NCBI GenBank assembly: GCA_900299245.1
Contig: OMJA01000236.1
Location: 1 to 35,503 of the forward strand
DNA length: 35,503 nt
Source: Nitrospiraceae bacterium
GTDB lineage: Bacteria > Nitrospirota > Nitrospiria > Nitrospirales > Nitrospiraceae
Direction: 5' to 3'
Shown: piece after piece, positions 5,303 to 23,337 of the stretch
Numbering within the stretch: the stretch's first letter is position 1
How the letters are laid out: every line of letters starts with the position of its first letter
Notes under the pieces: generated by a model
The model's input: the letters and a program-made list of their open reading frames with translations, nothing else
Told to the model about the DNA's origin: nothing
The model's database searches: none
Translations under genes and position numbers: made by a program

Positions 5303-5992
5303 ATGACTAGACGCGGCATTAGAAAGACTGGGAATTCCAGAAAAAAAATCCCTGAGGCTGTACGGGGCAAAGACGCTCAGTTTGGAGATTTGGAATGGCT
5401 TTGTGCAGTACTTAATCGAATATCCGACCCCAGCTTTTCCGGTCCACTGTCGGAACAATCAGACCCCACACACCCGCATCACGCTGAGTTCGTTACATCC
5501 GAGCGAGCTGCCTGGAGGCTCGCTATCGAAGTTCTTGAGCCCCTCGGATTGGTCCATCGCTATGCCGTGAAACGGCCTCAGAATTTTAATGCGGCCTACT
5601 CGGGAGTGAGCATGAGATTTGCGGCACTGTTGGGACAGTACGCAAACGGACGGCTAGTTGTTATCCAAGAAACCAAATATCCACAGAACGATATAGATAG
5701 CCCTGTCTGGCTTCGTGCCACCGTAGAACTCCCCCAAGCCTGGGGAGCTGACAACATGAAACAGTTTGTTGCCGTCTTGCTCTGGAAGAGAATCTTCCAG
5801 GAAGAAGGATACAAGAAGCTGCGCCGTTGCCTTCACTGCTCTCAATGGTTCCTCGATCATGGACGAAATCAGATCGCGAAGTTTTGCAAGAACCCTTCGT
5901 GCACGAACGTGTGGTGGAATCGCGGGAAAAGACGACAAGCAAAGCAGCGCCAGCAGGTATCTCAAAAGAAAGGGAAAGGAGAGCTGTCATGA
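5303..5992 (+). CDS. CGNR-like zinc-finger protein of the element
   Basis: A 229-aa protein. The C-terminal 60 residues (about 170-215) read RRCLHCSQWFLD, then RNQIAKFCKNPSCTNVWWN, then basic RGKRRQAKQRQQ. This C-x2-C ... C-x4-C pattern with an SRN-like turn and basic tail resembles the CGNR zinc finger of stress-type transcription regulators, though the CGNR tetrad itself reads CTNV. The N-terminal 165 residues are unrecognised and may sense something. The start follows GGGAAG directly after the GTAC operator cluster, and the stop overlaps the integrase start (ATGA), so it is cotranscribed with the integrase. A regulator of integration is plausible but unproven. Confidence 0.68.
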   Translation: MTRRGIRKTGNSRKKIPEAVRGKDAQFGDLEWLCAVLNRISDPSFSGPLSEQSDPTHPHHAEFVTSERAAWRLAIEVLEPLGLVHRYAVKRPQNFNAAYSGVSMRFAALLGQYANGRLVVIQETKYPQNDIDSPVWLRATVELPQAWGADNMKQFVAVLLWKRIFQEEGYKKLRRCLHCSQWFLDHGRNQIAKFCKNPSCTNVWWNRGKRRQAKQRQQVSQKKGKGELS

Positions 5993-7077
5993 CTCAAATC
6001 GAAAACCTCCCGAAGCCCCGACGCAAAGGAGGGAAACGTGACGGGCTGTTTCAACGCAACGGCTGGTGGTGGCTCGATTACTATGACGCTGAGGGAAAGC
6101 GGCATCGGCAGAAAGCCGCGCCGGACTATGAGACAGCCAAGAAACTGTATCGGGAGAAGATGACCGGTATTGCGAAGGGCGAATTTCTTGGCGTCAAAGA
6201 GGAAGGAATCAGCCTGAAGAGGTTTGTGGAGGAAAAGTACTGGCCGACGATCAAGGGCTCACTCAGCTATTTTGAGGAACGACGCTCTCGCTCCATCCTC
6301 GATCAACACATCCTCCCCCGTTTCGGAGACTTCAAGCTTGCCAAGGTTCGGACGGAAGATATTGACCGCTGGCAATCCGGACGGATGGAGAAAGCCAGCC
6401 CTGGCACAGTGCGAAAAGAGATAATGCGCCTCAAGCACCTACTGAACTGCGCCGTGAAGTGGCGGTACATCAAAGAATCACCTGCCAAGGGCCTGCAAAC
6501 CGTCAAAATGCCCCCAGGACGAGTCCGATACCTCACATCAGAGGAAAGAGCCACGTTGCTTGAGACTGCTCGCCCAGACCTTCGCCCTTATATCGACGTC
6601 GCCTTGCAAACTGGCGCACGGCGAGGGGAACTATGTGGCCTTCGCTGGAGTGATGTCGATATGCGAACCAGAACGGTGGCCTTCCCGAAAACCAAGAATG
6701 GGGAGCGGCGAAACGTCCCGATGACTGATACCCTGTACCAGCTCCTTCAAAGTCTCCCCCGCCCGTTGGACCCGAAGGCCCTCGTCCTGCCATCCCTGAG
6801 CGCCGATGCCGTGACGATAGGGTTTGGCCGGCTGGCAAAAGCCCTGAATCTCTCCAACCTCAAGTTTCACGATCTTCGGCATGACGTAGCCAGCACACTC
6901 ACAATGGCGGGAGTTCCTCAGCGAAGCGTGATGGAAATTTTAGGGCATAAAGACCCGCGCATGACGCTCAGATACCAACACCTCACGCCAGCCCACCTCC
7001 GTAATGCGATGACTGCCCTTGAGTCCAAGGAACATGAAGCTCCAGCCCAACCCCAGGCAGCGGGGCAGGCCGGTTAG
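5989..7077 (+). CDS. int: Tyrosine recombinase (phage-type integrase)
   Basis: The track ORF begins at 5827, but the ATG at 5989 has AGGAGA 8 nt upstream and a 4-bp ATGA overlap with the previous gene, giving 362 aa. An N-terminal AP2-like arm-binding region (NGWWWLDYYDAEGKRHRQ) is followed by a SAM-like core-binding domain (about 75-165) and the catalytic domain. The catalytic set is present: Arg in TGARRGELCGL, Lys in PKTKNGERR, His/Arg in HDLRHD, His in LGHKDP, and Tyr in LRYQHL. It would catalyse site-specific integration and excision at the tRNA-Glu att sites 41 bp downstream. Its stop codon lies inside the right-hand 19-bp arm repeat. Confidence 0.96.
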   Translation: MTQIENLPKPRRKGGKRDGLFQRNGWWWLDYYDAEGKRHRQKAAPDYETAKKLYREKMTGIAKGEFLGVKEEGISLKRFVEEKYWPTIKGSLSYFEERRSRSILDQHILPRFGDFKLAKVRTEDIDRWQSGRMEKASPGTVRKEIMRLKHLLNCAVKWRYIKESPAKGLQTVKMPPGRVRYLTSEERATLLETARPDLRPYIDVALQTGARRGELCGLRWSDVDMRTRTVAFPKTKNGERRNVPMTDTLYQLLQSLPRPLDPKALVLPSLSADAVTIGFGRLAKALNLSNLKFHDLRHDVASTLTMAGVPQRSVMEILGHKDPRMTLRYQHLTPAHLRNAMTALESKEHEAPAQPQAAGQAG

Positions 7078-7117: not shown

Positions 7118-7163
7118 GGTGGTGGTCCCAACGGGATTTGAACCCGTGTTTAAGCCTTGAGAG
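7118..7163. repeat. Right att repeat, part of the intact tRNA-Glu
   Basis: An exact 46-bp copy of 314-359. It covers tRNA-Glu from the anticodon loop to the CCA end plus two bases. Since the integrase lies on this side, the tRNA 3' half here was supplied by the element, which keeps the gene functional. The repeat border at the anticodon loop is a common crossover zone for tRNA-targeting recombinases. Confidence 0.92.
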
Positions 7164-7197
7164 GGCTCCGTCCTAGGCCAGGCTAGACGATGGGACC
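7120..7197 (-). tRNA. tRNA-Glu (anticodon CTC)
   Basis: Read on the minus strand it is 78 nt including encoded CCA. Acceptor GGTCCCA pairs with TGGGACC, followed by discriminator A. The D stem is GTCT/GGAC, the anticodon stem GAGCC/GGCTT with loop CTCTCAA (anticodon CTC, reading GAG), and the T arm ACGGG-TTCAAAT-CCCGT. All four stems form, so the gene should be functional. It is the integration target of the element to its left. Confidence 0.95.
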
Positions 7198-13079: not shown

Positions 13080-14078
13080 TCAGGCCAGGACTGTCACCGT
13101 GATCTCGTGCAAACCCGCGGCTCCGTCCGGAGCCGGCTCCTGTTCGATGGATGTCTGGAGCCGGCCGGTCCCATCCGTGGCACGGACGAGAAGAGTATAC
13201 CGGCCAGACTGACGAACCACCCATTCGTAGCGCCAGAATCGCCAGGCAGCCGGCGCGAGCGGAACGTCTAGAGCAGCCAGTTCCCACCGCTCCCCGCCGT
13301 CGGTGCTGATCTCGACCTGCTGGATGCCCCGGACCCCGGCAAAAGCAAAACCTTCAACTGTCTGTCGAAAGCCGGTGATCGTCGTGCCATGGTCCGGCAG
13401 ATCGATACGAGACATTGTCTTCACGATCGCTTCATCCGTCCAACCCTTCTGCGCATAGTAGCCCTTGTAATGCTCCGCCACGACGTCGATGGCCGACAGC
13501 CATTGCACACTCTTCATGCCGTAATGGCCCGGCACGATCAAGCGGGCAGGGAATCCGTGTCCCAGAGGAAGCGGTACTCCGTTCATCCTGTGTGCAATCA
13601 ACACATCGCCGGCCAGTGCGCGATCGAGACGGATCCCGTCCGAATACCCGTCCGCCGCGCGGAACACGACGTCATAGGCTGTGGCACTAACCCCGGCTTC
13701 CTCCAACAACGCACGGAGGGAGACCCCTTCCCACTCGGCTGTGCCGATGAATTCGCCAGCCACCGTGTTCCCGACGCATTCGAGCGTGACGATCTGCGAG
13801 ACTGTGGGTCTAGCCAGCAATTCGTCGTACGTCAGCGTCATGGGACGTTCGACGAGGCCATTGATCGCCAGAGACCACTCGTTGAGACGAATCGTCGGAG
13901 GACTGCGGTAGGAGGTGACATAAAACTCGTCGTTAGGCGTGATGGGCACTGTACGACTCGCATGAGTAGAGCGAAAGAAACGATCGAGAAGTCCCGAATG
14001 CGTCACGCCGGGCCAGGCTGTCGCAAATGCGAGCAGGCCTGTCATTTTGAGAAATATACGGCGAGTCAGAACGGTCAT
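13080..14078 (-). CDS. Tat-exported sulfite-oxidase-family molybdopterin oxidoreductase
   Basis: Starting at MTVLTRRIFLKMTG (2 bp after the previous stop) gives 332 aa. RRIFLKMTGLLAFATA is a twin-arginine signal. The Moco-binding domain has the family Cys ligand in VTLECVGNTVAGE, plus GTAEWEGVSLRALLEEAG and HGFPARLIVPGHYGMKSVQWL. A C-terminal Mo-co dimerisation-type beta domain (about 235-330) has GVRGIQQVEISTDGGERWELA. It is therefore a periplasmic oxidoreductase of the sulfite oxidase/SorA type rather than YedY-like, which usually lacks the dimer domain. No haem or cytochrome partner is adjacent. It is the last gene of the putative sigma54-controlled operon. Substrate unknown; sulfite is one option. 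Confidence 0.88.
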   Translation of the reverse strand: MTVLTRRIFLKMTGLLAFATAWPGVTHSGLLDRFFRSTHASRTVPITPNDEFYVTSYRSPPTIRLNEWSLAINGLVERPMTLTYDELLARPTVSQIVTLECVGNTVAGEFIGTAEWEGVSLRALLEEAGVSATAYDVVFRAADGYSDGIRLDRALAGDVLIAHRMNGVPLPLGHGFPARLIVPGHYGMKSVQWLSAIDVVAEHYKGYYAQKGWTDEAIVKTMSRIDLPDHGTTITGFRQTVEGFAFAGVRGIQQVEISTDGGERWELAALDVPLAPAAWRFWRYEWVVRQSGRYTLLVRATDGTGRLQTSIEQEPAPDGAAGLHEITVTVLA

Positions 14079-14080
14079 AG

Positions 14081-14740
14081 TCAAAAATGATAGGCGACGC
14101 CACCCATAAACCAATTCGTTCGCAGATCAGCGTTGAACTGGTTGTCAGAAAACTCCACGGTCGCGCGGGCATACGTATATTCGCCGAAGAGGGCGACATG
14201 TTCGGTCACAAAGAGCTTCATTCCGGCAAGCACACTGAAGACCGGATAAAACGCGGACTCGGCCTCCGGCGCCGTCCGCAACAACGAATGTCCCAAGCCA
14301 CCGCCGACCCCGACATAAGGCTGGAGAAATCCTCCCGGATAGCGGGCAATCACATGCCCCGTCATATGATTGACCGTCAATCCCACGCGCGGGGTCATCC
14401 CGCTCTGTTGGGTCGTACCCAGAATGGGTGCGCCGGCCGTAATGCCTTGACGCTCGACGTTGGCATCACTGTGGGGAAAATCGAACTCTACAGCGAGCCA
14501 GTTCCAGGCATCCGAGAAGATGTATCCGGCTTTGACCCCATACGCCCATTGTGTACGCAAGTTGAGATTATTTGAGGTCACGCCGGTGAAATTCCCAGTC
14601 CCGCGAATATTGGTGAGGTCTTGCGGGATTTGCTGCCCTCCCTGACCGGCCAGATACCACTCCGCCTGTACCGGATCGACGCCCCCCATCATCCCGAGCC
14701 TCAGGACCAACACTGCGACCAATACTAACCGGCGTCCCAT
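14081..14740 (-). CDS. Small outer-membrane beta-barrel protein
   Basis: A 219-aa protein with a signal peptide ending near PVQAEW and then alternating amphipathic strands: WAYGVKAGYIF, WLAVEFDF, GGFLQPYVGVGGGLGHS, VALFGEYTYARATVEF, and a C-terminal strand ending in Phe (FMGGVAYHF). Length and pattern fit an eight-stranded OmpA-like/OmpW-like porin-type barrel in the outer membrane. It lies 7 bp after the thioredoxin-like gene and 2 bp before the Moco oxidoreductase gene, so it belongs to the same operon. Its role could be envelope integrity or passage of a small substrate; sequence does not decide. Confidence 0.82.
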   Translation of the reverse strand: MGRRLVLVAVLVLRLGMMGGVDPVQAEWYLAGQGGQQIPQDLTNIRGTGNFTGVTSNNLNLRTQWAYGVKAGYIFSDAWNWLAVEFDFPHSDANVERQGITAGAPILGTTQQSGMTPRVGLTVNHMTGHVIARYPGGFLQPYVGVGGGLGHSLLRTAPEAESAFYPVFSVLAGMKLFVTEHVALFGEYTYARATVEFSDNQFNADLRTNWFMGGVAYHF

Positions 14741-14747
14741 ACGTCCC

Positions 14748-15266
14748 TCACGAAGGCTCAGCCAGCAACGATTGAATCATCTGTTCCGTCTCTCGATATC
14801 CGCCCTCGCCGATGCGCACATGGCAAATCACGCCGCGCTTGTCGATCAGATACATCGCCGGCCAATAGCGATTGCCATAGGCATTCCACGTTGAAAAGTC
14901 GTTGTCGATGGGCACGGCAAACCGAATATCGTGATCCTTGATATAGCGCCGCACCCTGTCGATTTCTCGCTCGTGCGAAAATTCCGGCGAATGAACTCCG
15001 ATGATGACGAAGCCCTGATCGGCGTACGTCTCATGCCATTGCTTCACATAGGGCTCGACGTTCCGACAGTTGTAACAGCCGAAGGTCCAGAACTCGACCA
15101 GCACGACGTTGCCCTTCAGATTCGCCAGCCGTAACGGCTCACTGTTCAGCCAGGTCGGACTGGTAATGTCCGGGGCCTTCATACCGACTCCCGCATTGGC
15201 ACCTGCCCACGTAAGGAGGAATCCCGCCAGCATCGCGCCGATTGCGGCCATCCATTGGGGTGTCAT
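14748..15266 (-). CDS. TlpA-like periplasmic thioredoxin-fold protein
   Basis: A 172-aa protein with an N-terminal signal or anchor (MAAIGAMLAGFLLTWAGANA). The thioredoxin fold follows: VVLVEFWTFGCYNCRNVEPYVKQW carries a C-x2-C redox centre (Cys-Tyr-Asn-Cys), then FVIIGVHSPEFSHE and the cis-Pro segment YGNRYWPAMYLIDKRG. This matches the TlpA/DipZ C-terminal-like group seen in the periplasm. It could reduce or oxidise disulfides in other products of the operon or deliver electrons. It starts 2 bp after the lipoprotein gene. The CYNC motif differs from the common CPxC, so the redox potential may be unusual. Confidence 0.88.
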   Translation of the reverse strand: MTPQWMAAIGAMLAGFLLTWAGANAGVGMKAPDITSPTWLNSEPLRLANLKGNVVLVEFWTFGCYNCRNVEPYVKQWHETYADQGFVIIGVHSPEFSHEREIDRVRRYIKDHDIRFAVPIDNDFSTWNAYGNRYWPAMYLIDKRGVICHVRIGEGGYRETEQMIQSLLAEPS

Positions 15267-15268
15267 CC

Positions 15269-16495
15269 TCAGCTTCCTTTCGAAATCGAAATGATCGGCG
15301 CCTTGGCGTTAGAGACGTCGGTCACGGTCATCTGAAACAGATTGGCCAGCACGGCGAAGGCTTCCTGATTCCAGCTTGGCACCATGCCGCCGCTGATCGG
15401 GAACCGGCTGATCGAATAGTGGGTGCCTTCGAAGGCGACCGAGAATTCCGCCTCGCGTGGCGCCACCGTCAATTCTTCGATCTCCAACACCTTGTCGGGA
15501 TTCATGGTCACCGGTCCGCTGCGCGGGTCCGGGTCGACGTGGAACCCGGGCTCTTCCGAGATCGCCCGGGCGACGAAGCCGATGATGGCGTTGAAACTGC
15601 GCAATTGAATCATGCCGCGCATCGGCCAGTCTCCGCCAGGGTGGCCGGGGCGAATGTCCACGAAAATCGAGTCCGATGGAAAACGCTGGATCTCTTCGTT
15701 CAAGCGCCGGCGCTCCTCATTAGTCAGCCGCCACGGCTCGTAGTTCGCGATCACCAGCCGTCCGAGGACTTTTCGCGTCAGCACCGGCGAGTCGGCGCCA
15801 GCGCTGGTGCTCCAACGATAGCCCTTATCGAGCGCGGCGACGACCTCGACCGGCGCAAGCGCCCGATCCAGCGCCACGGGAAACGGCTCCTCGTAGCTGA
15901 GCGGTTCGATGGAGAGGGCGCGCGCCTGCTGGAGCGAGGCCAAATGCAGAAGCCGCCGCCTGAAGCCGATGAATTCCTCTTTGCGACCCGGCGCGTTGAA
16001 CAGCACCGTTCGGTCATGCTCGCCCTGTTCCAGCACCATGCCGCGAGCCATGAGGCGCAAAATCATGTTGATATCGAAACCCTGACGGGCCAGGAAGTCG
16101 AAGTGCGATTCTTCGAGGGAGCGCAGGATGCGTTTGGTAAATTCCTCGCCGGCGATCGGCACGATGGTGACGGTCGGACTCTCCGCGACACTCGTGCCGT
16201 ACTCAAGCGTGAGCGGCCGGTCGGCGGAATCCGCCACCGGGCCGATCCCGCCCCGGATGCCGGCATTCGTCCGGAAATCGAACGTCGCGGCCACGCTCGA
16301 GACTGCCGTGAAGTGTACCGGACGGTGATGCCGCGCTCGGGCGATGTTCAGCAGCAGCAATTCCGCTTCCACCTGACTCACGGTTCGATCGTACTCCAGC
16401 ACCGCCCGATGCAAGGCGATGGGCGAGAGACAACCGGTCAGGCCGGTAAGGAGCAGGGTGAGTGCGAGGATGGCTGATACACGCAGGATGTTCAC
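15269..16495 (-). CDS. Lipoprotein of unknown function
   Basis: A 408-aa protein starting MNILRVSAILALTLLLTGLTGCLSP; LTGC is a clear lipobox, so it should be lipid-anchored in the envelope. The mature part is mixed alpha/beta (EAELLLLNIARARHHRPVHFTAVSSV near the N-terminus, ISRFPISGGMVPSWNQEAFAVLANLFQMTV near the C-terminus). I do not recognise a family. It lies between the anti-sigma factor gene (57 bp upstream) and the thioredoxin-like gene (2 bp downstream), which places it in the putative stress operon. A structural or sensing role in the envelope is inference. Confidence 0.75.
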   Translation of the reverse strand: MNILRVSAILALTLLLTGLTGCLSPIALHRAVLEYDRTVSQVEAELLLLNIARARHHRPVHFTAVSSVAATFDFRTNAGIRGGIGPVADSADRPLTLEYGTSVAESPTVTIVPIAGEEFTKRILRSLEESHFDFLARQGFDINMILRLMARGMVLEQGEHDRTVLFNAPGRKEEFIGFRRRLLHLASLQQARALSIEPLSYEEPFPVALDRALAPVEVVAALDKGYRWSTSAGADSPVLTRKVLGRLVIANYEPWRLTNEERRRLNEEIQRFPSDSIFVDIRPGHPGGDWPMRGMIQLRSFNAIIGFVARAISEEPGFHVDPDPRSGPVTMNPDKVLEIEELTVAPREAEFSVAFEGTHYSISRFPISGGMVPSWNQEAFAVLANLFQMTVTDVSNAKAPIISISKGS

Positions 16496-16552
16496 GTTCT
16501 ACATGTCTCCACTTCAATCATGGTTTTCCGACAACGCGGACGGCTGGCACAC

Positions 16553-16834
16553 TCACATCTTCGTTGGTGGCGGAGTCCGATTGGCGGAGAAGGCTTGCCG
16601 AAGACGGTCCCGCAGAGTCGGCTCGACGGCAGGTCCCGGCAGCCGCCCGAGCAGATCACGAACCGCCGCAATCTGCGACACATACGCCTCACAGCCCGCG
16701 CAGGCCGCAAGATGGAGCGCCATGCGAACCTGTGTCGCGTCGTCCGCATGCGCATCAAGATAGGCCGAGGCCCATTCGGCCACCTCGCGGCAGGTGATGT
16801 CCGGGACTGACGGTTGGGCTGGATTCAATGCCAT
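16553..16834 (-). CDS. Zinc-finger anti-sigma factor (zf-HC2 type)
   Basis: A 93-aa protein. ITCREVAEWASAYLDAHADD followed by MALHLAACAGCEAYVSQ is the ZAS/zf-HC2 pattern H-x3-C-x2-C. No transmembrane helix is present, so it is a soluble cytoplasmic anti-sigma factor, as in redox-responsive ZAS proteins where oxidation of the Cys pair releases zinc and the sigma factor. It lies 52 bp downstream of the ECF sigma gene on the same strand, which makes that sigma factor its natural partner. Upstream GGAGGCCCCCC in minus orientation gives a ribosome site. Confidence 0.9.
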   Translation of the reverse strand: MALNPAQPSVPDITCREVAEWASAYLDAHADDATQVRMALHLAACAGCEAYVSQIAAVRDLLGRLPGPAVEPTLRDRLRQAFSANRTPPPTKM

Positions 16835-16886
16835 GGGGGGCCTCCGGTAATGTCGCTACCTCTGAGTCTCCCCACTTCTGAAATCC

Positions 16887-17612
16887 TTACACCGTGAGGG
16901 CCGCGCCCTCCAGATAGATCTCTACTGCCCGACGCACACGTTCCCGCGCACGATGTAACCGCACATACAGATTTGTTTCCGTGATCTGGAGCAGTTCGCA
17001 AGCCTCTTTCGCTTCGATACCTTCGATATCGCGGAGGATCAACACCTCTTTCAACGTCGGAGGCAACGAGTCGATCGCCTGTTGCATCGCCGCGACTGCC
17101 TGTCGTGACGCCAGCAGCTTCTCCGGTGTCTGCTCATCCCAGGGCTGCGGGGGGAAGGCCCAATGACCAGCCCATTCGCCGTTCTGGTGAAAGCGCGACG
17201 GATCGACCGCCTCGTCATGGTCATCATCGTGTGACTCAAAGTCGGAAAAGGTCGCATGGCGCTTCTCCCGCACGCCCCGGTCCTTGGCTTTATGAATCAG
17301 AATCCCGCAAATCCAGGTTCGTAGCGACGAGCGGCCTTCGAAGCGCGGCAGTCCCTGGATGACGGCCATCCAGGTGTCCTGCACCACTTCTTCCGCCGCC
17401 TCGCGGTCCGCCACGTGGCCCAGCGCCATGCGAATCAGCGCGCCGTGGTGTTTATTGACCAATTCATCGAACGCGCCCTCGTCGCCCTTGCGCAGCCGGA
17501 CGATCAGCGAACGTTCCTCCTGCGAGAGCGAGGGACCGGTAAAACCACCCGGCAAGGCTGCGGCGGACAGGATCGGCCCCGGTGATTCATGAGTGGCGAT
17601 AGCTGAATTCAT
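16887..17612 (-). CDS. ECF RNA polymerase sigma factor
   Basis: The track ORF begins at 17939 in an overlapping frame; the true start is ATG 17612 (MNSAIATHESPG), with GGAGG 6 nt upstream and a 4-bp ATGA overlap with the STAS gene, giving 241 aa. Sigma2 is clear (LRKGDEGAFDELVNKHHGALIRMAL, then EEVVQDTWMAVIQGLPRFEGRSSLRTWICGIL). An acidic/His-rich linker (DDDHDEAVD) follows, then sigma4 (LPPTLKEVLILRDIEGIEAKEACELLQITETNLYVRLHRARERVR). It would direct RNA polymerase to its own regulon under control of the zf-HC2 anti-sigma factor encoded next. The linker is longer than usual for ECF factors. Confidence 0.93.
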   Translation of the reverse strand: MNSAIATHESPGPILSAAALPGGFTGPSLSQEERSLIVRLRKGDEGAFDELVNKHHGALIRMALGHVADREAAEEVVQDTWMAVIQGLPRFEGRSSLRTWICGILIHKAKDRGVREKRHATFSDFESHDDDHDEAVDPSRFHQNGEWAGHWAFPPQPWDEQTPEKLLASRQAVAAMQQAIDSLPPTLKEVLILRDIEGIEAKEACELLQITETNLYVRLHRARERVRRAVEIYLEGAALTV

Positions 17613-17878
17613 GACTGACCTCCAATCTGCAGCAGCTCCGCCACAAAACCGGGAGCGCTGATGAGCGTGACTTGTGCGTGCGGGAAGTGCTTCACCACCT
17701 CCACTCCCCGTTGATCGATAAAATCCACCTGCGAACAATCCAGATAGACGTGCTTCTTCTGTCGAAGGAAGGAACGGCACTCGCCGTCGAGCAGCGCCGC
17801 CCATTGTTCCGTGATCTTTCCTTCCAGCTTGAGCAGCACGTCGGTGCCGCTTTCTTGAATGGTGGTGATCTTCAACAT
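17609..17878 (-). CDS. STAS domain protein lacking the usual phospho-serine
   Basis: The start chosen is MLKITTIQESG (89 aa) after AAAGGAGA; the track start lies 14 codons upstream, inside the predicted sigma54 promoter leader. It is a single STAS fold (VLLKLEGKITEQWAALLDGECRSFL, then KKHVYLDCSQVDFIDQRGVEVV). In SpoIIAA-type anti-anti-sigma factors the corresponding loop is DSSG with a phosphorylated Ser; here it reads DQRG, so classic switching by phosphorylation is unlikely. It is the first gene of the operon and is translationally coupled to the ECF sigma gene. It may bind a small ligand or the anti-sigma factor; that is inference. Confidence 0.85.
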   Translation of the reverse strand: MLKITTIQESGTDVLLKLEGKITEQWAALLDGECRSFLRQKKHVYLDCSQVDFIDQRGVEVVKHFPHAQVTLISAPGFVAELLQIGGQS

Positions 17879-17923
17879 CGCCGTGCGGTCTCCTTTGCTG
17901 TCGTCCACTGGGCAGACCATTCA

Positions 17924-17938
17924 GCAACGGCAGTGCCA
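17924..17938 (-). promoter_or_regulatory. Sigma54 (-24/-12) promoter of the STAS-ECF operon
   Basis: On the minus strand this reads TGGCAC-TGCCG-TTGC, a full match to the RpoN consensus TGGCAC-N5-TTGC, with GG and GC exactly 10 bp apart. The predicted start of transcription is about 17913, some 35 nt before the STAS start codon and leaving room for the AAAGGAGA ribosome site. A sigma54 activator gene ends 176 bp upstream on the same strand, and an inverted repeat suitable for activator binding lies between them. Confidence 0.82.
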
Positions 17939-18037: not shown

Positions 18038-18074
18038 TTCCCAACATATTGGGACCGTCACGATATGTTGGGAA
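18038..18074. promoter_or_regulatory. Perfect 12-bp inverted repeat, putative activator (UAS) site
   Basis: TTCCCAACATAT (18038-18049) and ATATGTTGGGAA (18063-18074) are exact reverse complements with a 13-nt spacer. The left arm also forms TCCCAA-CATA-TTGGGA, and another TTGGGA occurs at 18081-18086, so several half-sites share one spacing family. The centre is about 143 bp upstream of the predicted sigma54 transcription start, the normal distance for enhancer-binding proteins. It also lies 40 bp after the stop of the activator gene, but lacks a T-run, so a terminator role is less likely. Confidence 0.68.
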
Positions 18075-18113: not shown

Positions 18114-20447
18114 TTACGACTTCATTTGACGCTCGATCCCGAGCTTTTTCATCCGCGCTTCGAGTGTCGTGGGTTTCAGGCCGAGGATGGCGGCGGCTCC
18201 TTTGGGGCCGCTCACGCGCCAGTTGGTCTGTTCGAGCACGTCGAGAATATGTTGCCGTTCGACCTCGTCAAGCGTGAGCGGCTTTCCCTGGCTGGCTTTG
18301 GCAGCTGAAGGAGACAGCCAGTCGATCGGTTCCAGCTCGGGCCCTTCGCTCAAAATCACCGCCCGTTCGATCACATGTTCCAGCTCACGGATGTTGCCCC
18401 GCCATGGATACCGCTGCAGCGCCGTCATCATCCGCTCGGGAATCTTTGTGATCTTCTTGCCGAAGCTCGCGGCGAACTTTCTGACGAAATACTGGACCAG
18501 CAGCGGAAGATCGCCCTCGCGCTCACGCAACGGCGGCACATGGATCGGGAAGACGTTGAGCCGGTAATAGAGATCGGGCCGGTACTGGCCGGATTTCGAC
18601 AGCGACTCGAGATCGCGATTGGTCGCTGCGATCACCCGCACATTCACTTTGAAGGTCTGTGTCCCGCCGACCCGTTCGAACTCGCCTTCCTGCAGGACAC
18701 GCAGCAGCTTTGATTGCAGATTGAGCGGCAACTCGCCGATCTCGTCGAGAAAGATCGTGCCCTTGTCGGCAACTTCGAAACGGCCCATTTTTCGGGTGAG
18801 CGCACCGGTGAAGGCGCCTTTCTCGTGGCCGAAGAATTCGCTCTCGATCAGGCCGGCTGGAATTGCGGCGCAGTTCACCTTCACAATCGGCTTGCTCTTG
18901 CGGGGGCTCAAGTTGTGAATCGCGCGGGCAATCAGTTCCTTGCCCGTGCCGGTTTCACCGGTAATGAGAACCGTCGAATCGGTCGGCGCCACCCGCTCCA
19001 CATTTTTCAAGACCTTCTTCAGCGTGGTGGAAGAGCCGATCAACTCCTCGAAGTTGTGGCTGCCCTTGATTTCCTCCTGCAGATAGACGGCCTGGGCTTC
19101 GAGCCGCGCCTTCTCCTGTTCCATCAACACCTGCTCGGTGATGTCGACGAACATCGTGCGGGTGTAGGTGCCGCTTGGATCGGGGCGCGACCACCAGCGG
19201 ATCCAGAGCGGCTTCCCGTTGTCCTTGCGCCGCAGTTCGAGGATCACGCCGCTCGTATCGACGCCCTTACCGATCGAGTCGAACGCTTCCTTCAGCCGCC
19301 GCTGGGCGTCGGGCGTGTCGGGGATGAACGACTTCCCGTACGTGCCGTCTACTTCCTCCGCCGTGATACCGAGCGTCCTCAACGCCGTTTTGTTGGCGCG
19401 GATGAATCTGGAGTCCAGCCCCTCGTTCACATGCGCGATCGGGGCTTCGTCGAACAGATCGTGCAGACGGGCTTCGTCGTCCTTCAGCTGCCGTTCCATC
19501 TGGACCCGTTCGAGTTCCGCTCCGGCCCGCGCCCCGAACACTTTGAACACGGAAAGATCGAGCTGGGCCAGCTCCATGCGCTTCGTATCCATCACTGCGA
19601 GATGTCCCAGGATCTGCCCGCTCGCGCTCGTCACCGGAATCGCCAGATAGCTTTCGACGTGAATCTCCTCCAGTTCTTTCCGGTGGAGCGGGAACCGGTC
19701 GGCCACCTTTTCCGCGCAGTGATATAGCTCGCCCGCCAGAACGAGCTCGCACGGGGTATGGGCGATGGCATATTCGAAATTCGGTTCGAAGCGTTCTCCG
19801 GACCAGAAGGCGAGCGTCCGTACTTTGGAGCGGTCAGCGCAGAATTCGGACACGAAGGCATAGCGGACGTCGAGCACCTTGGCCAGTTGCTGGACCAGTG
19901 CCGGAAAGAACTGTTCGCCGACCTTTGCCTCAACACCTTCGACAATCTGGCGGAGCGCCGCGCTCGTTTTGGCCAGAGCCTCGCTTCGTTCCGCCACCTG
20001 CCGTTCCAGCGAAGCCTGCGAATCTCTCAGCCGCTGTTCGGCCTGTTTGAGCTCCGTCACATCGCGAGATACGGCGAGCAACCGGTCCGGCTTGCCGTGT
20101 TGATCGAGTATGGGACTGACGGAGACATCCCACCATTTCGGGGTCTTCGTCTGTGTCGTCGCGAAGAAGCCGGTGAAGTGGCCGACCCGACCCTGGCGCG
20201 CCACCTCGACGGCGGCCTGAGCATTGGTCTTGTCGGCACCAGCCCAGAAGTCTACCCAGGGTGAGCCGACGAGCGGGGCGAAGTCGCAGATCTCCAAGGG
20301 CGTCATGCCGTGGGCGTTCATCGAGAGGAGGCGGCCGTCGAGGTCGAGGAGTTTGATACAGTCGCGGCTGCTGGCAATGAGCCGTGCCGCGAACTCTTCG
20401 CTGCGTCGCAGCGCTTCTTCAAGATCGGGAGATGACATCGCGCTCAT
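18114..20447 (-). CDS. Sigma54-dependent activator with PAS-GAF-PAS sensor
   Basis: A 777-aa protein from [13 protein letters not shown] (a second Met is at 20438; track start 20513 adds an unlikely leader). Order: PAS (about 10-140), short coiled coil, GAF (about 180-320), PAS with ITEQ end (about 345-445), AAA+ (about 460-700), Fis-type HTH at the C-terminus ([29 protein letters not shown]). Walker A is GETGTGKE (about 500), the sigma54-contact loop is [15 protein letters not shown] (about 545), Walker B is [12 protein letters not shown], and the arginine-finger region follows. It opens RpoN promoter complexes by ATP hydrolysis. It has no receiver domain, so input comes from ligand binding to PAS/GAF. 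It is similar in layout to FhlA/NorR-like activators. Its likely target is the adjacent sigma54 promoter at 17924-17938. Confidence 0.93.
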
Positions 20448-20620
20448 CCAGTGAGAGGCGCCAGAGGCTGGAAAACCGGGGAGAAGTCTAGCACCGGAGG
20501 GAAAGAGCCGCAACTATAGGGATAATGCGGCAAAGTCTCCGCATCATTGTGATGAGGATTTCGCTGATAGAGTCCGCGCACCGTTGACTCTTCCCCATTG
20601 ACGCCGTAGCGTAGAGCCCC

Positions 20621-20830: not shown

Positions 20831-20950
20831 TCGGCGCTCGTTCGTCCCTTAGTCCGCACCAAGCTCTTCTCACTTGTAAGATCTCAGGCCCTCCTCCGAC
20901 TCCTGTGCAGAGAGTGGAATGATCCACCTCACCACTTCAGGAGGGGAGTC

Positions 20951-22000
20951 ATGAAGAAGCAGATGAGACAATTGACGACGTTCGGGTTGATGGCGGCCGT
21001 GGGCTTGGCGGCTCTGTCCGTAGGCTGTGTGTCCGCCAACGCGGAGAGCATGGGCATGAAGAAAGGCCATCGGCTTTTGCTGAAGAGCGCGGTCGAGAAT
21101 GCGGACTACACGGAAGTGACGCTGCCGATTTTCGAGGGACGGCGGAGCGGCGAGACGGTCTGGTTTGTGGTGACTGAGTCATCGGACAAGGCCGACGCCG
21201 TTGCACGCGGGGTGCACTACAGCCCGAAGATGGCGAACGGGAAGGGCACGCTCGCCGTGCAATCGGTGGGGATGGTGAACGGGAAGGTGCAGTTCCTCGG
21301 CAGTGTGGACTTCTCGCCTGAGCGTATCGTGGTGCCGAGCGAGACCGGGTTCCCTCCGAAAGAAGCGAAGCCCGGCGCCATCGGTGAGGCGCTCTACACA
21401 CCCTTGATCCAACTGCCCAACGGGATCGTGTTGAATGCGCCGCAGATCAAGAACAACAGCGGCACGCACGATCGTCTTATCCGCATCGATCTGGAGAAGC
21501 GCACGGCCACCTTCAAAATGACGGACGGATTCTTCGAAGGCCGACGCGTGCATTACACCTCGTTTAACGCGTCCGATCCGGCGATCGCGGCTCTGGAAGC
21601 GGCGAACTATACGCCGAACCTGAAAGCGTTGCCCAACAAGGGTTCGAACGGCCCCGGTTCCGGCTTGACCGGCCTGGCTCCGGTCGTGAACGGGCCGACG
21701 GGCAAGATGAATCCATATCGACAGGGCCTTGCGTCAGCCCTCATGGGTGAAGGCGACCCGCTGAACATCGTGCAGGAGATTCCGTTCGGCGCCCGCGCCC
21801 TGGCCTATAGCCCGATGTGGGATGTCCATGCCACGGTCTGGGCTCAGGTGCCGATGCCGGCCTCCAGTTCCGTTCAACTGACGGACTTCAATGAGGTTGA
21901 GAAGAAGGCCTTCGCCGGCCAGATCTCCGGTCCGGACGGCAAGCCCTGGGGCCCGATCGGCGTGGTCGTGAACTGCCCGATCATCAGCCTCGAAGAATAG
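20951..22000 (+). CDS. Exported protein of unknown function
   Basis: A 349-aa protein with very strong ribosome site AGGAGGGGAGTC before ATG. The signal peptide (FGLMAAVGLAALSVGC, then SANAES) is most likely cut after ANA; SVGC is a poor lipobox. The mature part begins with a beta-rich block (HRLLLKSAVENADYTEVTLPIFEGRR, ETVWFVVTESSDKADAVARGVHYSP), followed by a segment with KMTDGFFEGRRVHYTSFNASDP and a C-terminal block ending VVVNCPIISLEE. The layout suggests a periplasmic beta protein of the DUF7482-like kind, but that recollection is weak. It is a single gene with a hairpin following it. Confidence 0.75.
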   Translation: MKKQMRQLTTFGLMAAVGLAALSVGCVSANAESMGMKKGHRLLLKSAVENADYTEVTLPIFEGRRSGETVWFVVTESSDKADAVARGVHYSPKMANGKGTLAVQSVGMVNGKVQFLGSVDFSPERIVVPSETGFPPKEAKPGAIGEALYTPLIQLPNGIVLNAPQIKNNSGTHDRLIRIDLEKRTATFKMTDGFFEGRRVHYTSFNASDPAIAALEAANYTPNLKALPNKGSNGPGSGLTGLAPVVNGPTGKMNPYRQGLASALMGEGDPLNIVQEIPFGARALAYSPMWDVHATVWAQVPMPASSSVQLTDFNEVEKKAFAGQISGPDGKPWGPIGVVVNCPIISLEE

Positions 22001-22047: not shown

Positions 22048-22220
22048 ACATACCTTCGGCTACGCCAATCTCAGACGTTCTCCTGCTCAATACGTGTTGG
22101 CCCGATTCATCTACAGCCCTCACTTATCCACCCATCTCCCTTCTGCGTCCTTTTCCGGAATGCTCCGTCTCTAGGGATAGGCGGGTGAATTCTCTCCCGC
22201 CGCTTACCCAGGAGGTTCCC

Positions 22221-22667
22221 ATGAGACCGCATCTTTCTCTCGATGTTCGTCAGGTTCCGGCATCGGTCGAATTCTACCGGAAGGTGTTCGGCGTGGCGCC
22301 GCAGAAACAAACGGACGACTATGCGAAATTCGACCTGACCGCCCCGGCGCTGAATCTGTCGCTGGTCTCGTCCACCGGCAGAATCAGTTCGGTCGACCAT
22401 CTCGGGATTGAAGTGGATTCGCTCGAAGACATCGCACAGTGGAAATCGCGGCTGCAAACCGCCGGTGTGCTTGAGCGGGTCGAAGACAACACCGCCTGCT
22501 GCTTCGCCAGACAGGACAAACTCTGGTTCACGGATCCCGACGGGAATGCCTGGGAAGTCTTTCTCGTGCATGAGCAACTGGCCGTCGACGGGCCGCTCAG
22601 CCGGACAGGCTGCTGCGTCCCCGCCCATCCCGGCGCCACCCGGGCGGCAACTTGCGCGGCATCCTGA
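22221..22667 (+). CDS. ArsI/CadI-family metal-resistance dioxygenase
   Basis: A 148-aa vicinal-oxygen-chelate protein from ATG 22221 with AGGAGG upstream (the track start lies before the ribosome site). It has MRPHLSLDVRQVPASVEFYRKVFGV, VDHLGIEVDS and TDPDGNAWEVFLVH, placing likely Fe(II) ligands at His4, His60 and Glu112. A vicinal Cys pair in TACCFARQDKLWF (93-94) matches the arsenite-binding pair of ArsI C-As lyase; a second CC is at 131-132. ArsI cleaves methyl or aryl groups from trivalent organoarsenicals. CadI relatives are cadmium-induced, so the metal is not certain. The next gene is a SigZ-like sigma factor, a pairing that suggests metal-responsive control. Confidence 0.85.
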   Translation: MRPHLSLDVRQVPASVEFYRKVFGVAPQKQTDDYAKFDLTAPALNLSLVSSTGRISSVDHLGIEVDSLEDIAQWKSRLQTAGVLERVEDNTACCFARQDKLWFTDPDGNAWEVFLVHEQLAVDGPLSRTGCCVPAHPGATRAATCAAS

Positions 22668-22707
22668 TGCGCGGTACCGTAGAAAGGCGTCGGTCGGAGG
22701 CGTGATC

Positions 22708-23337
22708 ATGACACCGGATAGGCACGACATCTGGATGGAGGTGCGCGGGCGACTGCGCGCCTTCATCGCCAAGCGAATCGCAGACGATGCGGCGGTTGAC
22801 GACCTGCTCCAGGAGGTCTTCCTGAAGATCCATGACAAGATCGATCAGGTGCAGGATCCCCGCCGCCTGGTTTCCTGGATCTTCACCGTCACACGCCACA
22901 CGATTATCGATTATTACCGGACGTCCCACCGCCATCGTGAACTCCCGGCCGGACTGGCGCCGGACGTGGAAACTCTGATGACGGCGGGAGGGCCGAAGGA
23001 CGAACCGGATGAGCCTCGCCTACAGCTCGCCGGCTGCCTCCGCCCGATGGTGGATCAACTGGCGCCGGAATACCGGGACGCCCTGAAGCTTGTCGAACTC
23101 GACGGGTTGACCCAACAAGCCGCCGCGGCAAAGCTGGGGCTGTCCCTTTCCGGCATGAAATCCCGCGTCCAAAGGGGCCGTCGACAGTTGAAGGCTCTGC
23201 TGCACGGTTGCTGTCTCATTCAACTCGATGCGCGGCACGGAGTTGCCGACGTCACCCTCCGAAATCCTATGGCCGCCCCCTGCGCCCCGCCGGCTCCGAC
23301 GATGCCCGAGCGGCGAGCGGCACGGAAACCGATTTGA
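22708..23337 (+). CDS. sigZ: SigZ-like ECF sigma factor
   Basis: A 209-aa protein from ATG 22708 with GGAGG 8 nt upstream; the track ORF start at 22408 lies inside the ArsI gene. Sigma2 (VDDLLQEVFLKIHDKIDQVQDPRRLVSWIFTVTRHTIIDYYR) and sigma4 (LAPEYRDALKLVELDGLTQQAAAAKLGLSLSGMKSRVQRGRRQLKALL) are clear. After sigma4 comes GCCLIQLDARHGVADV, the Cys-containing tail typical of SigZ. That tail could bind metal or metalloid and control activity, removing the need for an anti-sigma factor; none is encoded beside it. It starts 41 bp after the ArsI/CadI-like gene. Confidence 0.88.
   Translation: MTPDRHDIWMEVRGRLRAFIAKRIADDAAVDDLLQEVFLKIHDKIDQVQDPRRLVSWIFTVTRHTIIDYYRTSHRHRELPAGLAPDVETLMTAGGPKDEPDEPRLQLAGCLRPMVDQLAPEYRDALKLVELDGLTQQAAAAKLGLSLSGMKSRVQRGRRQLKALLHGCCLIQLDARHGVADVTLRNPMAAPCAPPAPTMPERRAARKPI

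Follow-up and report, generated by a model that had tools for sequence, protein, structure and literature searches.

A trimmed ECF sigma factor operon of a Nitrospiraceae bacterium as a probable oxidant-triggered envelope repair regulon

Based on gene order among relatives, promoter motifs and the cysteine spacing of an anti-sigma factor, we propose that a seven-gene operon of a Nitrospiraceae bacterium probably encodes the core of an oxidant-triggered regulon for methionine sulfoxide repair in the cell envelope, as a trimmed member of an operon found across the Nitrospira family. The operon lies in a window of 35,503 nucleotides that constitutes one whole contig (OMJA01000236.1, C236) of a 3.0 Mb assembly in 351 contigs, 87.6% complete; its close relatives are Nitrospira, the main nitrite oxidisers. 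The proposal follows from genes in the relatives' operons that resemble those of hypochlorite regulons, from the promoters of msrA and msrB, and from the predicted redox character of the zinc anti-sigma factor.

All seven open reading frames (ORFs) are on the minus strand and code, in order of transcription, for an anti-sigma-antagonist-like STAS protein (17609..17878, 89 aa; Pfam STAS, 5.2e-7), an extracytoplasmic function (ECF) sigma factor (16887..17612, 241 aa; Sigma70_r2, 7e-14, and r4_2, 5e-13), a soluble zinc anti-sigma factor (ZAS; 16553..16834, 93 aa; zf-HC2, 8.7e-6), a lipoprotein of the outer or inner membrane with a GTG start and the lipobox LTGC22 (15269..16495), an exported DipZ-type thioredoxin-fold protein with a CYNC motif (P0003; 14748..15266; AhpC-TSA domain), an outer-membrane beta-barrel, whose gene is a lineage-specific insert (14081..14740; OMP_b-brl, PF13505, 1e-9), and a molybdenum cofactor (Moco) oxidoreductase of the sulfite oxidase (SUOX) fold exported by twin-arginine translocation (Tat) (P0001; 13080..14078; Oxidored_molyb, PF00174, 2e-47, and Mo-co_dimer, PF03404, 1e-7). 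The STAS and sigma genes overlap (ATGA) and 52 bp separate the sigma and ZAS genes; the seven-gene set and the downstream gaps of 57, 2, 7 and 2 bp given in a preliminary description of this sequence are exact, and the Pfam domains agree with it. That description took the cluster to be uninterrupted unless a terminator or promoter separated the sigma genes from the rest between 16495 and 16553; this interval contains neither a consensus terminator nor a sigma-70 promoter, but a likely internal promoter occurs one gene earlier, between the sigma and ZAS genes at 16891-16866.

Orthologs of the thioredoxin were found in 67 of the 236 genomes of the order (E<=1e-40), and at about 50 of these loci we read the gene neighbourhood. 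The gene order, conservation of which the preliminary description had made a test of its operon, is indeed retained among relatives. In its fullest single-contig form (L223 of genome G105; also L151 of Nitrospira sp. UBA5699) the operon runs from an NtrC-class gene through STAS, sigma, ZAS, dehydrogenase, YHS, cytochrome b561, MsrP-like, lipoprotein and thioredoxin genes to the Moco gene, and at other operon loci a gene for a methionine-rich peptide (20% Met) additionally precedes cytochrome b561. A locus of the same genus (L217 of G146) has the order of L223 with no YHS gene detected, and shares its ADH right flank with the window. Fifteen other genomes of the genus have an ortholog of the ECF sigma factor (74-81%), and in most congeners the sigma operon runs on into the YHS, methionine-rich peptide, cytochrome b561 and MsrP-like genes. 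The lipoprotein, thioredoxin and Moco genes are also contiguous in six genomes besides this one, which represent four genera of the family (L217, L220, L223, L224, L227 and L245), with the Moco gene at most 64 bp after the thioredoxin gene in 13 other loci; among the loci read, the outer-membrane barrel occupies its position only in the window and L244.

The methionine-rich peptide, MsrP-like and cytochrome b561 genes of the relatives match regulons proven to respond to hypochlorite, such as BcrXQP of Brucella (PMC8315932). The relatives' loci additionally carry genes for a bd oxidase, an alternative oxidase and an RclC-family DUF417 protein; E. coli requires RclC to resist HOCl (PMC7527725). 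By its sequence the short Moco protein of these operons is MsrP-like only, scoring 92 bits against the cut-off of 207 of NF003767, with YedY (1xdq) as its best solved relative. Matches to the chlorite dismutase family were not used, as Cld and HemQ were not separable among them.

Judged against these relatives, the window operon is a reduced form that has lost the cytochrome b561/MsrP core and kept the thioredoxin/Moco arm. An MsrP-like gene is present in 12 of 16 congeners with an ortholog of the sigma factor versus 2 of 19 without one (Fisher p=1.4e-4), and none was found in the window genome. The earlier statement that the set has no cytochrome partner is thus correct for this genome, but in its relatives the same operon includes genes for cytochrome b561 and an MsrP-like protein. 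The closest relative as judged by both sigma factor and ZAS is G026 (L131). There, 73 bp lie between the ADH and ZAS genes, and this gap retains a 10-residue scar of the Moco C-terminus (frame AGLHEITVTVEP followed by a stop; AGLHEITVTVLA followed by a stop in the window), which indicates that the block is older than the split and was deleted in G026. This scar and the full operons in the family led us to drop an insertion of the block beside the sigma genes. In a further congener (L102, G034:C99) the MsrP-like and thioredoxin genes are broken, and the repair arm is decaying. The Moco-thioredoxin pair stands without cytochrome b561/MsrP at six loci (the window, L091, L226, L235, L245 and L246) and is therefore independent of them.

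The likely promoter between the sigma and ZAS genes (16866..16891, minus strand) has the ECF-type form TGTAAG-N17-GAC, a motif after which GAA or CAG often comes next, and stands at the same position in most operon loci; it resembles, without being identical to, the proven ECF16 promoter (T/C)GTAAC-N17-CGAA (PMC8315932; PMC3511200). The window holds two such sites versus 0.07 expected. The second, found by the motif scan at 20875..20900 on the plus strand, lies 51 bp before the ATG of a DUF7482 gene (ORF 20951-22000), a possible further member of the regulon by virtue of this motif. In the relatives the motif recurs in the sigma-ZAS gap and ahead of both GDH/YHS and cytochrome b561, and the set of loci contains 85 sites against 6-14 in shuffles. 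When R is allowed after TGTAAG, the whole 3 Mb genome has eight sites, two of which lie 25 and 42 nt before the genes for an exported MsrA and MsrB, respectively, and no other PF01625 or PF01641 gene was found in the window genome. The motif precedes msrB in 17 of 19 genomes with an ortholog of the sigma factor and in none of four loci from two genomes of another family. We infer that the sigma factor of the operon reads this motif.

The ZAS has the spacing C-x25-H-x3-C-x2-C (C15, H41, C45, C48), which is exactly that of RsrA (C11, H37, C41, C44), and the CHCC residues are kept in the ZAS orthologs read, down to 27-37% identity, except in L095, where the aligned frame is broken. Redox release by RsrA depends on its Cys11 (PMC4960319). 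Together with the relatives' operons and the motifs before msrA and msrB, this spacing gives good support to the suggestion of the preliminary description that a redox-sensitive zinc anti-sigma factor is coupled here to envelope oxidative repair.

A second layer of control is predicted upstream of the ECF-type promoter. Before the STAS gene lies a sigma-54 -24/-12 promoter (TGGCACTGCCGTTGCT; 17923..17938, minus strand), the one match that the window offers to its strict form against an expectation of 0.10, and GGCAY-N5-TTGCT occurs upstream of STAS in 21 of 21 loci. About 115 bp farther upstream are CCCAA..TTGGGA palindromes, including the 15-bp CCCAATATGTTGGGA (18039..18053), a probable activator site by sequence footprinting with a degenerate second copy alongside; related CCCAAY..TTGGGA elements occupy the same place in 14 loci and in 7 further ones. 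The adjacent upstream gene (18114..20513, minus strand) codes for an NtrC-class sigma-54 activator of PAS-GAF-AAA+-Fis architecture (Pfam Sigma54_activat, 2.5e-73, with PAS, GAF and HTH_8), and an NtrC-class gene adjoins STAS-sigma in the relatives read. The locus thus has both a -24/-12 promoter and a gene for an enhancer-binding activator, which is likely to drive the operon.

In light of these observations, we propose that the sigma-54 promoter and the adjacent PAS-GAF activator would bring about synthesis of the STAS protein, ECF sigma factor and CHCC ZAS, and that oxidation of the ZAS cysteines would release zinc and the sigma factor. The freed sigma factor would then read TGTAAG-N17-GAC before the ZAS-lipoprotein-thioredoxin-barrel-Moco block, the neighbouring DUF7482 gene and the distant msrA and msrB genes, and the envelope proteins so produced would mend proteins damaged by oxidation, chiefly at methionine. 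Electrons for the exported MsrA, and perhaps for the Moco enzyme, might come from the DipZ-type thioredoxin, which CcdA would probably recharge. In the relatives a sacrificial methionine-rich peptide and an MsrP-like/cytochrome b561 pair would contribute to the same task, and the window genome would rely on the thiol arm.

Several points weigh against this proposal. The motif is not enriched across the genome, where the reversed control has 16 sites and the motif itself 8, so that only its positions are telling. Of 7 family members that lack an ortholog of the sigma factor, 5-6 also have it before msrB, which makes it a trait of the family that is perhaps read by more than one ECF sigma factor; a paralogous ECF sigma factor (G000, C65) may read or share it. 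The sole candidate electron donor for the Moco protein, the thioredoxin, is assigned by inference, and the AlphaFold model of the lipoprotein, built from a two-sequence alignment, has a pLDDT of 34. As a separate observation, the contig with the paralogous sigma gene, possibly the second reader of the motif, carries an ECF-type motif 19 nt before a VTT-domain-like ORF (L257, G000:C65:142).

The alternative that survives best, although we regard it as improbable, retains the same wiring and replaces the oxidant by metals or reactive nitrogen acting as thiol-binding stress, with the envelope proteins mainly handling thiol damage. SigF of Caulobacter, from an analogous group, responds to both chromate and cadmium, and the genes under its control include YedY and DoxX genes, one of each (PMC3511200). 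The alternative oxidase and bd oxidase of the relatives would fit a reactive-nitrogen trigger. Both oxidases withstand NO. The methionine-rich peptide, MsrP-like protein, MsrA and MsrB in the inferred regulon nevertheless point to methionine oxidation.

Less probable is an oxidation of sulfite or other sulfur oxyanions, as the preliminary description had suggested, with the Moco protein as a sulfite dehydrogenase supported by the thioredoxin and barrel. This protein combines the twin-arginine motif TRRIFLK and the molybdenum ligand Cys101 with a SUOX fold and dimerisation domain, and its nearest solved relative is SorA (2blf, E=8e-31). However, it falls below the NCBIfam cut-offs of all named families (SorA, 164 bits against 600; SoxC, 140 against 420; SorT, 97 against 570; MsrP, NF003767, 56 against 207). 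The equivalents of Arg55, His57 and Arg109 of the SorA sulfite pocket are threonine, tyrosine and a deletion, and Tyr236 is replaced by an invariant tryptophan, which makes sulfite oxidation unlikely; moreover, none of the operons seen includes a cytochrome c partner.

We give slightly less credence still to a role in cytochrome c maturation, with the thioredoxin as an analogue of CcmG/ResA and the other genes as passengers. The thioredoxin matches the ResA and DsbE models weakly, but its best solved relative is the C-terminal domain of DipZ (2hyx, E=4e-38) rather than CcmG; its 172 residues comprise a signal sequence and the thioredoxin domain, and the fused CcdA-like membrane domain of DipZ is absent. 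Moreover, the single CcdA of the genome is separate from the operon, beside two further TlpA-like genes, and Moco enzymes are the stable neighbours of the thioredoxin. Least credible of all is that the block merely adjoins the sigma operon and escapes its regulation: thioredoxin and Moco genes do occur without sigma genes at L091 and L246, and the lipoprotein has paralogs elsewhere, but in the window, L217, L223 and L227 (where a contig edge truncates the last of these loci) the block and sigma-ZAS are collinear, and an ECF-type promoter precedes it with no intervening terminator.

Within the favoured repair regulon, we entertain as a speculation of low probability that the SUOX-fold protein and the DipZ-type thioredoxin form a two-component envelope reductase, in which the molybdenum enzyme would be fed by a thiol-disulfide protein instead of haem. 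If true, this would explain the adjacency of the pair and its survival where cytochrome b561/MsrP was lost. Distant relatives of the Moco protein in Actinobacteria, Chloroflexi and archaea had neither a thioredoxin nor a cytochrome b561 neighbour among the ORFs listed.

The preliminary description knew of no system with exactly this composition, which holds literally, but the operon is a shortened version of one that occurs across the family and resembles the described SigF/NrsF-MsrP-MrpX systems; a literature search that missed most subscription journals found no paper naming it. The SigF/NrsF group (ECF16: SigF-MrpX-YedYZ of Azospira, BcrS/AbcS-BcrXQP of Brucella and SigF of Caulobacter) likewise combines an ECF sigma factor with a cysteine-based anti-sigma factor, has a promoter similar but not identical to the motif found here and targets Msr genes (here by sequence alone), and shares with the relatives of the window the methionine-rich peptide, the MsrP-like protein and its cytochrome b partner. 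Its anti-sigma factor is, however, the DUF1109/NrsF protein with six transmembrane segments, whereas that of the window is the soluble CHCC zf-HC2 protein of 93 aa; the window further differs in its STAS and sigma-54/NtrC input, its extra lipoprotein, DipZ-type thioredoxin and SUOX-like enzyme, and the disappearance of the MrpX-MsrP core. SigR-RsrA of Streptomyces has the exact CHCC spacing and thioredoxin-type targets in common with it, but employs another sigma factor and a cytoplasmic thiol regulon, the predicted targets in the window genome being envelope proteins, Msr genes and the Moco protein. In the CcdA-Etrx-MsrAB2 system of S. pneumoniae (PMC3914529) an exported thioredoxin-fold protein is similarly proposed to feed an exported MsrA, and CcdA is present in both, but the thioredoxin and MsrA of the window genome are at separate loci tied by the promoter motif only, with the Moco enzyme added. 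As in MsrPQ, a Tat-exported MsrP-like protein is accompanied in the relatives' operons by a membrane cytochrome b, but this belongs to the cytochrome b561 family rather than MsrQ, the MsrP-like protein scores under the MsrP cut-off, and the pair is absent from the window. With SorA/SorT the Moco protein shares the SUOX fold and the cysteine ligand of molybdenum, but not the sulfite-pocket residues or the cytochrome c partner.

The locus thereby offers a testable oxidant-response circuit for Nitrospira, comprising a predicted sensor, promoters in two layers and a regulon of few members (the block, DUF7482, msrA and msrB), and suggests that the evolution of an ECF sigma-Msr regulon here involved another type of anti-sigma factor. 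As Nitrospira meets chlorination in water works, a response to chlorine species would be of practical interest. The comparison also singles out a thioredoxin and a molybdoenzyme that are conserved as a pair, and a family of lipoproteins that sequence libraries do not recognise. The lipoprotein had no match in Pfam, NCBIfam or the PDB, either singly or as a 26-sequence profile, and by these searches is a Nitrospira family without a recognised relative. Its operon orthologs (61-72%) are accompanied by paralogs (40-55%) at unrelated loci, and only the former are therefore informative; on account of these paralogs the lipoprotein was rejected as an anchor of the system. Two of the paralogs (L104 and L105) stand, by our reading of the sequence, between cytochrome P460-like, cytochrome c peroxidase-like and Pqi-type genes.

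A search of plasmids returned weak pieces only, mostly across the thioredoxin. A few kb from the thioredoxin-Moco genes, the window (22185-23337) and the distant G045 locus L091 (6643-7755) each contain an ECF sigma gene that forms a pair with a VOC/glyoxalase-like gene. Elsewhere in the window, a 49-bp near-identical direct repeat (314-362 and 7118-7166), the second copy of which is at the end of a tRNA-Glu gene (7120-7197), encloses a segment of about 6.8 kb that codes for a tyrosine recombinase (5827-7077) and contains primase-like ORFs; this segment is an element integrated in tRNA-Glu.

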